DNA from: Parvibaculum sp. | GTDB lineage: Bacteria > Pseudomonadota > Alphaproteobacteria > Parvibaculales > Parvibaculaceae | DNA length: 64,000 nucleotides | NCBI GenBank assembly: GCA_030645235.1 | Contig: JAUSMV010000012.1 | Span: forward strand, 744,001-808,000 | Reading direction: 5' to 3' | In this document: positions 24,473-27,253 of the stretch, piece after piece | Layout: each line of letters starts with the position of its first letter | Position numbering within the stretch: the first letter of the stretch is position 1 | Position numbers and translations under genes: made by a program | Notes under the pieces: model-generated | Database searches by the model: none | The model's input: the letters and a program-made list of their open reading frames with translations, nothing else | Told to the model about the DNA's origin: nothing

Positions 24473-24590
24473 GAGGGACTCAATGAGGGGAGAAAGGCGG
24501 GGAGTATGGAACGGAGAAAGTTTAGAGAAGGTTAGTTACAGTGGATTAGATCGTTCAGACTTTTGAGTTTTGATTGAAGTGCGAGAGCGA

Positions 24591-25295
24591 TTATTGCTGT
24601 GTGTTTTGATGAACTCTTTTTATAGAATCTAATAGGCGGCTGCCTGCGCCCACAATTTTTGAAAGCACTTTTATTTGCTCCTTGCAAGCTATGTGGTCCG
24701 TAGGTTTGGGATAGTTAATTTGATGATCAACTTCTCCCCAGATTTCTTCAAATAATGTTCGGACTTGGATTTCGCAATAAATATGTGATTTAGCTTTAGG
24801 TTGAACTAAGTAGTGTACGCTCGTATACGAGGTGGATTTCTGTGATACGGCTAAATCAAATTGTTCAAAAAATGCGGCCGCTTCTGGATCCCAAGTATAA
24901 GCCTTAGGGCGTTCCGCAAAAATCCAGTCTCCACTGGAAACTTTTTTTCTCACGATTGTATCTATTGCGCCGAAATCCTCTTGGAACAAATGCAATATTC
25001 TTACGCCGGCCAGATCAGTAATTTGTTTAAAGAAATTTTTGGCGTCAATTTTCTTTTCGGCTGACTTTCGGATTATTTTTTCGCTCAGGTGGTCTTTGTC
25101 TTTAAGTCGGCATCTGTAGGAATGAATAATGTTTTTGCCGCCAGTTTTTAGATCTGGATGAGTTCCGATGTGATTCACAACGCTGTCCATGAAAATTTTA
25201 ATTTCATGTTGTGAATCTGTGTAAAGATCAATTAGTTCAGAAATCTGCTTCTTACTTGGGCGGGGAAATTTTCTTTTAGGTTGAGTTTTTTTCAT
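24591..25295 (-). CDS. stand-alone RelA/SpoT-domain nucleotide pyrophosphokinase
   Basis: 234-aa protein with only the RelA/SpoT synthetase fold: no HD hydrolase and no TGS/ACT part. Key residues look intact: R63-x-K65 and K73 in CRLKDKDHLSEKI, D94 in TDLAGVRIL, Tyr157 and His161 in SYTSVHYLV, Glu175 in CEIQVRT, and EEIWGEVDHQINY. It would transfer pyrophosphate from ATP to GTP/GDP, or to tRNA 3' ends as shown for some toxic small alarmone synthetases. It overlaps the ParA-like gene by ATGA, so the two are translationally coupled. G+C is about 40%. A toxin role is inference. Confidence 0.88.
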   Translation of the reverse strand: MKKTQPKRKFPRPSKKQISELIDLYTDSQHEIKIFMDSVVNHIGTHPDLKTGGKNIIHSYRCRLKDKDHLSEKIIRKSAEKKIDAKNFFKQITDLAGVRILHLFQEDFGAIDTIVRKKVSSGDWIFAERPKAYTWDPEAAAFFEQFDLAVSQKSTSYTSVHYLVQPKAKSHIYCEIQVRTLFEEIWGEVDHQINYPKPTDHIACKEQIKVLSKIVGAGSRLLDSIKRVHQNTQQ

Positions 25296-26395
25296 AGCAA
25301 GTCGACCCTCGCCAGAAAATCTTCCGCAAATTCGCGGTAAGCTTTTCGTGTTGCTCTAAATTTTTCCTGATTTCCAGCAATGGTGCTTTGATCGGATGGT
25401 TCTAATTTTGGAAAATCGGGTAGCTTCCACATTGGCAGATGGTATTTTTGAGACATGCTGGGAAATGTGTTGTGACTGTGTATGACAGCGTTTTTTCCGA
25501 TTGATCCCTTAAGGATGTCTTTGAAATCCAGTATGTTGCCAGCAGCGACGTATTTTGAAATTGTTGAAGGGATTTGCTGAGCATAGTGAAAGTGTGCCTT
25601 CGCTAAGTGAAGATCATTGCTCTGGCCCGAATATCGTTTTGAGTTGTAGAGAGTAAATCCTATTAATCTTACAAACCTGTCTGGAAATTGAGTGCGTTTT
25701 GCATCGGGGAGGAGAAGGAAAATGCTTTCGAATTGCTTTCTCCATGTGCTCAACGCGGCGCCGATGTTTCTTATTCCGTAAACGGAAAAAAGATCAGGCG
25801 CACATGGAATTAGAAATCCATCGGCCAGAGACAGTAAGCTTCTATTTAAGGCACCCAAACTTGGAGAAGTGTCGAATATGACTATGCTATAGCCATACGA
25901 TTTTGCGTATTCGTAGGCCATTGATCTGGCGCGGGTGGCTGTGCGTATTGCTAGAGGATCGCCTTGATATATTCCACTCCAACGCTCGCCGACTTTTGCC
26001 TCGTAGAGGTGCAATGTTAGTCGTCCAGGAGCTAAATGAACATTCGGTGCGAGTTCAATAGGTGGTGGAAGTTGGTCAATTTCGGCCGTGCCATCTTCGG
26101 TTGGCTTTAACGAAAAGTGAATTGATCTTGGCTCGCGAACAAGCGAAGTGAAGTCTTTTGATCCGAGCTTTTCCCGCGCAGCTGAAAAATCTTCTACAAA
26201 ATCGTCTTCCTTTACCCAAATGTCGTGTATCTGTTCCATTTCTAGTGAAAAAATTGTGAGATTGCATTGAGGGTCTAAATCAACGAGCAGTATTTTCTTG
26301 CCCAGTTCCCCAAGAGCATGTGCAAGGTGATATGTGAGAGTTGTCTTTCCCACCCCTCCCTTGTTGTTGAAAATCGTGATGATTTTGGGGTTCAT
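25292..26395 (-). CDS. ParA/MinD-family ATPase
   Basis: 367-aa deviant Walker-A ATPase. NNKGGVGKTTLT (residues 10-20) with signature lysine K12 and catalytic K17, Walker A' LLVDLDPQCN, Walker B YSIVIFDTSPSLG (170-181). It lacks the N-terminal HTH of plasmid ParA type Ia and has a C-terminal extension of about 100 residues. No parB or parS is visible, so classic partitioning is unlikely; it probably works with the RelA/SpoT protein it overlaps. Sampled lines are 37-42% G+C versus about 60% around, indicating transfer. Confidence 0.9.
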   Translation of the reverse strand: MNPKIITIFNNKGGVGKTTLTYHLAHALGELGKKILLVDLDPQCNLTIFSLEMEQIHDIWVKEDDFVEDFSAAREKLGSKDFTSLVREPRSIHFSLKPTEDGTAEIDQLPPPIELAPNVHLAPGRLTLHLYEAKVGERWSGIYQGDPLAIRTATRARSMAYEYAKSYGYSIVIFDTSPSLGALNRSLLSLADGFLIPCAPDLFSVYGIRNIGAALSTWRKQFESIFLLLPDAKRTQFPDRFVRLIGFTLYNSKRYSGQSNDLHLAKAHFHYAQQIPSTISKYVAAGNILDFKDILKGSIGKNAVIHSHNTFPSMSQKYHLPMWKLPDFPKLEPSDQSTIAGNQEKFRATRKAYREFAEDFLARVDLL

Positions 26396-26437
26396 GAATT
26401 TTGCCTTGTACTGAGTAATTTGAGTGATTAAAGCAGG
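26396..26437 (-). promoter_or_regulatory. short AT-rich upstream region of the ParA/RelA cassette
   Basis: Only 42 bp separate the cassette from the upstream hydrolase gene. On the minus strand it reads ATCACTCAAATTACTCAGTAC, with ACTCA repeated at 9-nt spacing, then AAGG 9 nt before the ATG. The repeated half-site could be an operator for autoregulation. No convincing promoter boxes. Confidence 0.3.
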
Positions 26438-27253
26438 CTAAATAAAAATTTCCAATCTATTTTCCAAAAACCCCACCATCTCCACAAACGCCTGCCGATC
26501 CTGAATCATAAACATATGCCCGCCCTCGAACATCTTGAGTGTCGCGTTCGGCAGCCGCGTCATCATCTTCTCCTGCGTCTCCGGCAGCGCCTGACCGTCA
26601 TATTTCCCGCCGCAGACCAAAGTCGGGCACGTAATCTGTGCCAGACGGTCCCACGTATCATGTCCCGCCCGTGCCTCAAGCTGACGGCGCAGGCCCATCG
26701 CGTGATCTGGTTCATCTTTATAGGGATCATTCACCGCGTAAGCGACAAACTGTTCATACATCTCGCCGTTCGCCGCGATCCAGTCCGGCGTGCGGCGCGT
26801 GTCCATGATGGGGATCATGTGTTTGGCGCGCGCGACAGGCTCCATGTCCTGCACTTCATGCAGCGGATAAGACGCGCCGCCTGCGCCGCCGGGCGAGGTG
26901 CAGGCGAGGATGAGCCGGTCAACGAGATGCGGGTGCCGCAGCACGAGTTCCTGCGCCACCATGCCGCCAAACGAGACGCCGCAAATATGCGCGCGGGTCC
27001 AGCCCATGGCCGCCATCAGCCCCGCCGCGTCGTCGGCATAGTCGGCCATCGTGTAAGCGCGGTCAGGCTTTGAGCTTTGGCCAAGGCCGCGTTGGTCATA
27101 GGCCAGCGTGTCAAAATGCTTAGGGAAGGGGCCGTCCAGCGCATTGGGTTTGGCGCGGAGGTCGCTGCCGGTGCCGGAGATGAACAGCAGCGGTGAGCCT
27201 TCACCCTTCCGCTCATAGTAAAAGGTCAGGTCGCCCAATTTGGCGGTCGGCAT
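26438..27253 (-). CDS. alpha/beta hydrolase
   Basis: 271-aa alpha/beta hydrolase. Oxyanion strand PLLFISGTGSDLRA, nucleophile elbow CGVSFGGMVAQ (Ser about 98), catalytic His in FEGGHMFMIQD. Close in type to 3-oxoadipate enol-lactonase-like hydrolases. GGGAG before the ATG at 27253 sets the start. G+C returns to normal immediately inside this gene, marking the edge of the AT-rich cassette. Confidence 0.88.
   Translation of the reverse strand: MPTAKLGDLTFYYERKGEGSPLLFISGTGSDLRAKPNALDGPFPKHFDTLAYDQRGLGQSSKPDRAYTMADYADDAAGLMAAMGWTRAHICGVSFGGMVAQELVLRHPHLVDRLILACTSPGGAGGASYPLHEVQDMEPVARAKHMIPIMDTRRTPDWIAANGEMYEQFVAYAVNDPYKDEPDHAMGLRRQLEARAGHDTWDRLAQITCPTLVCGGKYDGQALPETQEKMMTRLPNATLKMFEGGHMFMIQDRQAFVEMVGFLENRLEIFI

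Follow-up and report, generated by a model that had tools for sequence, protein, structure and literature searches.

The question raised by this locus is what a ParA/MinD-family ATPase and a stand-alone RelA/SpoT-type synthetase do together in one AT-rich cassette, found within a 64,000-nucleotide stretch of Parvibaculum sp. DNA (the window). The preliminary description reported two genes sharing an ATGA, and both open reading frames are present as described. The first gene of the operon (25292..26395, minus strand) encodes a 367 aa ATPase, assigned by its open reading frame, Pfam AAA_31, alignment and an AlphaFold2 model, and the second (24591..25295, minus strand) encodes a 234 aa pyrophosphokinase, or small alarmone synthetase, assigned by Pfam PF04607 and AlphaFold2. 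The ATPase stop and the synthetase start overlap in the ATGA at 25292..25295 (minus strand), which suggests translational coupling. The G+C content of the cassette is 42.0% overall (38.4% in the synthetase gene, 44.3% in the ATPase gene), against 57.3% for the whole window and 57–58% in the flanks; the lowest other 1805-nt stretch in the window has 51.5%. The AT-richness reported earlier is thus real, with two corrections to its figures: the ATPase gene lies above the 37–42% given at the time, and the surroundings, put at ~60%, are at 57–58%. Third-position G+C is 35% in the synthetase gene and 42% in the ATPase gene, versus 74–75% in the two neighboring genes compared. The cassette is a compact, foreign two-gene unit. 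A promoter scan was uninformative, with fewer sites than in shuffled sequences.

Comparison within the genus identifies the cassette as a clean insertion. Nineteen genus relatives have loci around the neighboring hydrolase gene, and in 18 of them the flanking sulfatase and/or small motility-type gene adjoins the hydrolase with no cassette between; in the nineteenth (L167) the hydrolase alone lies within the stretch covered. Alignment to the empty site of the nearest relative (G031; L150) ends at ~24492 and restarts at ~26477, giving the insertion an approximate extent of 24493..26476. The synthetase was found in no other genome among 40 searched in the order. The gene tree of the paired synthetases is discordant with the organism phylogeny which, together with the empty site in the genus relatives, indicates that the pair moves as a unit. 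A mobile element with its own ends was considered and rejected, as neither convincing terminal repeats nor a transposase could be found.

The two genes form a conserved operon. A strict pattern scan of one genome per species yielded 137 synthetase relatives, the best 80 of which were taken as loci; going by their record titles, these include Alpha-, Beta- and Gammaproteobacteria, Bacteroidota, Bacillota, Campylobacterota, Acidobacteriota, Myxococcota and Poribacteria, as well as one archaeal MAG (Methanothrix). Two of the 80 loci are cut by contig ends, and in the remaining 78, all those with room for an upstream gene, the ATPase is encoded directly upstream of the synthetase. The possibility that the pair would prove not to be conserved, which would have undone the earlier reading, is therefore set aside, and recurrence in 78/78 loci among the best 80 of 137 indicates that the pairing is not due to chance. 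Of 93 closed pairs, 92 have an intergenic spacing between −11 and +15 nt, and the commonest spacing (28/93) is the −4 overlap seen in the window. Viral loci with room likewise have the ATPase upstream of the synthetase. In the reverse test, conducted on viral contigs, a synthetase gene comes next after every ATPase of the paired family that has room for one, and after none of the 56 ParA matches that are more distant or partial. A second, divergent ParA lineage is also paired with the synthetase, in genome loci L060, L086 and L090 and viral contig L292. The ATPase and synthetase distance matrices are correlated (r = 0.53, 91 loci; largest of 999 permutations, 0.24), which argues for co-inheritance rather than physical interaction, as the permutation leaves common descent and co-transfer in. 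A third operon gene was sought and rejected: none is conserved across loci, except within related Poribacteria.

In three loci (L017, L031 and L069) a damaged ATPase accompanies an open synthetase reading frame. The copy in Paracoccus thiocyanatus (L031:6568-8672) has lost the N-terminal half of its ATPase along with the upstream region, and abuts a glycine-cleavage T gene; the damage in L017 and L069 could reflect sequence errors. Since a lethal toxin would discourage such loss, these loci speak mildly against a simple pairing of lethal toxin and antitoxin. The opposite case occurs in the viral locus L012/L112, where the synthetase is broken and the ATPase intact.

The synthetase matches Pfam RelA_SpoT (PF04607) at 65.2 bits against a 27-bit cut-off. 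The preliminary description held that the synthetase residues are kept and that the hydrolase and regulatory tail are missing, and both points are borne out: R63, K65, K73, R76, D94, Y157, E175, Q177 and R179 are identical in 100 of 100 synthetases compared, and Pfam detects no HD, TGS or ACT domain, and hence no hydrolase or regulatory domain, in the window protein. Its AlphaFold2 model (pLDDT 88.6) is nearest in fold to RelP/RelQ, with CapRel further down, and the housekeeping RelP/RelQ enzymes (SAS2/SAS1) are its best PDB matches by both sequence and structure. It differs from them in a longer stretch, with a WDPE motif, ahead of the acceptor-site tyrosine, in its pairing with an ATPase, and in being accessory rather than housekeeping; other, housekeeping-type RSH enzymes are also present in 5/5 host genomes checked. 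The YjbM equivalog model scores 44.8 bits, below its 320-bit cut-off. Maximum-likelihood analysis places the ATPase-paired synthetases in a clade of their own (95/95), apart from the RelP/RelQ-type enzymes, the long Rel proteins and CapRel. CapRel SJ46 is the one named toxSAS in this tree, PhRel, PhRel2, FaRel and FaRel2 lying outside its sampling, and its placement is unsure because it forms a very long branch.

The sister of the paired clade consists of longer synthetases whose tail differs, having a long extra C-terminal part (L146:1712-2881, L148:5818-6849, L263 and L267); they are encoded on plasmids and in Bacillota, and the two plasmid regions have no ParA-type gene annotated next to the synthetase. 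Single-gene synthetases of ~330 aa that share a conserved C-terminal half make up another family, not paired with ParA, found in prophage contigs (viral contigs L117-L143).

The upstream protein matches Pfam AAA_31 at 95.8 bits, and all of its Pfam matches are ParA/MinD-type P-loop NTPase families and their relatives. It shares with ParA, Soj and MinD an overall fold and a set of motifs, namely a deviant Walker A (FNNKGGVGKTT), D39 and D41 in DLDPQ, and D175 in DTSPS; the Walker A with its signature lysine, DLDPQ and DTSPS are 96–100% conserved across 95 loci. The nearest PDB entry to its AlphaFold2 model (pLDDT 84.9) is 3pg5, the uncharacterized DIP2308 of C. diphtheriae, followed by Soj/ParA. 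Unlike these proteins, the cassette ATPase has an extra conserved C-terminal region (Q316, P321 and W323, near-invariant together with H268), and its partner is a synthetase rather than ParB. As first described, no parB-like gene lies beside the pair in the window, and none is conserved beside the pair across loci. The sole YxxY column pair in the ATPase, at position 247, is present in 60% of loci, reads FxxY in the window protein and falls in a predicted ParA strand.

The genomic setting of some other copies suggests a link to phage defense. The pair was found in 7 of 5,426 E. coli genomes, on the chromosome in 7/7, and in the two regions examined it lies in a P2-like prophage between the replication endonuclease and portal genes. 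The proteins of the E. coli P2-prophage pair have the accessions WP_089588522.1 and WP_176599854.1. Divergent copies adjoin the portal gene in seven further distinct P2-like loci (L036, L058 with L103/L105, L101, L104, L106, L111 and L114), gpA being detected on the other side in five of the seven; in L109 and L110 the pair occupies another P2 position. The gpA–portal site of P2 is given as an anti-phage hotspot, housing old, tin and other systems, in the hotspot text of Rousset 2022 and Vassallo 2022; that text does not name the pair, which shares the insertion site of these systems in E. coli and in other P2-like elements. At other sites, proteins neighboring the pair matched 97 PADLOC families among 147 proteins, against 9 among 147 controls; the controls were drawn from just three alphaproteobacterial genomes, and there is redundancy and overlap among PADLOC families. 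The pair's own proteins gave no convincing match to PADLOC models. The pair thus recurs in defense contexts, both at the P2 site, in E. coli and in seven or more further elements, and in the PADLOC comparison. The broader suggestion of a mobile toxin-type or phage-defense module fares well as regards conservation, horizontal movement, the P2 hotspot and the PADLOC neighbors, but less well at its own locus: in the window, the cassette stands by itself among metabolic genes and not in a defense island. Several other copies also have metabolic surroundings, near glycine cleavage, P5C reductase and threonine dehydratase genes.

Taken at the level of sequence, these observations support a mobile, dedicated module that combines an effector enzyme with a regulatory ATPase, for which an anti-phage role is the most likely one. 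We assign a probability of about 0.6 to the reading that the cassette is a mobile two-gene module whose synthetase would act as a growth-arresting effector, triggered by phage, with the ParA-like ATPase as its dedicated regulator. Such a module would be TA-like, of the abortive-infection kind, with an alarmone-type effector under control of the ATPase. Encoded by the first gene, with translation probably coupled to that of the synthetase, the ATPase in its ATP-bound, and possibly DNA-bound, state would bind the synthetase and hold it off. Phage infection would shift the state of the ATPase, such that the synthetase is released or activated and transfers pyrophosphate from ATP to a nucleotide or to the 3' end of tRNA; growth would then stop and phage yield drop. 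We infer, in this scheme, complex formation and inhibition, the toxicity of the synthetase and its neutralization, the trigger, the substrate and product, and the defense outcome. CapRel, a proven effector of phage defense with a synthetase fold, sets a precedent in the literature (PMC9712102). It is possible, though more doubtful, that the ParA-family ATPase serves as both infection sensor and on/off switch, and that the same sort of ATPase works with other effectors such as SIR2, which would make ParA-gated immune modules a general class.

The cassette might instead be an alarmone module that is not a toxin at all, in which the synthetase makes ordinary (p)ppGpp at sub-toxic levels, tuned by the ATPase, for stress control of the host or prophage without killing. 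The resemblance in fold and sequence to RelP/RelQ, which are true (p)ppGpp synthetases, the intact catalytic residues and the presence of several copies among metabolic genes are what such a module would display. It is nonetheless unlikely, given that the paired synthetases group separately from RelP/RelQ and have a longer loop ahead of the acceptor-site tyrosine, that the hosts checked already have housekeeping-type RSHs, and that the distribution of the pair is patchy and accessory and includes a defense hotspot.

Two further explanations start from the ATPase. ParA/MinD relatives position other cargos, and this one keeps the ParA nucleotide-site residues and has a model that matches Soj/ParA structures, so that it could place the synthetase on the nucleoid, a pole or another structure, any defense effect being incidental. 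A ParB-like basic N-terminal tail on the synthetase was considered in this connection and rejected as a family trait: a net charge of +7 is found in the window copy only, against a family median of 0, and spatial positioning is accordingly rated as quite improbable. That the pair is a relic of plasmid or island partition or addiction, in which a partition-system ParA came to neighbor a synthetase by chance, is very improbable indeed. ParA is usually a partition protein and the insertion is short and AT-rich, but no parB-like gene is conserved beside the pair, the pair is conserved over large distances, and only eight plasmid records have any synthetase match, with the pair confirmed in one (Caballeronia pNK81).

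Against these alternatives, the phage-triggered module with an ATPase-regulated effector is best compared with the toxSAS systems (FaRel2/ATfaRel2, PhRel, PhRel2/PanA and the fused CapRel). Like the cassette, these have a stand-alone synthetase fold with intact catalytic residues, and are encoded in a tight two-gene operon (or as a fusion), often on prophages. Their known antitoxins carry pZFD-like, PanA/DUF4065 or Tis1-like domains (PMC11782079, PMC8832971), whereas the partner in the cassette is a ~330–380 aa ParA-type ATPase with no Pfam match to known antitoxin families; CapRel SJ46, subject to its very long branch, also falls outside the ATPase-paired clade. No description of a ParA and small alarmone synthetase pair was found in the literature searched, to which the Jimmy et al. 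2020 toxSAS survey did not belong, and the NCBI annotation of the E. coli pair reads only "ParA family protein" and "RelA/SpoT domain-containing protein". The cassette is probably an undescribed growth-arrest defense module. If so, a widespread two-gene module (137 synthetase relatives in the strict scan of species genomes) would be added to bacterial immunity or growth control, and ParA ATPases would be seen to regulate an enzyme that modifies nucleotides or tRNA. Because E. coli P2-like prophages carry intact copies, the pair is open to direct testing in laboratory strains.

ParA-like proteins also occur in other arrangements. On one contig only (L210:5986-7912), with no second copy found, a related ParA-like ATPase of 357 aa, 30% identical, overlaps a gene with a SIR2_2 domain at a P2-like gpA–portal site. 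Stand-alone ParA-like proteins of ~350 aa, in which the Walker A is of the variant form KGGVSKT and which have no synthetase beside them, are encoded on viral contigs (L293-L297), and some of them adjoin phage genes.
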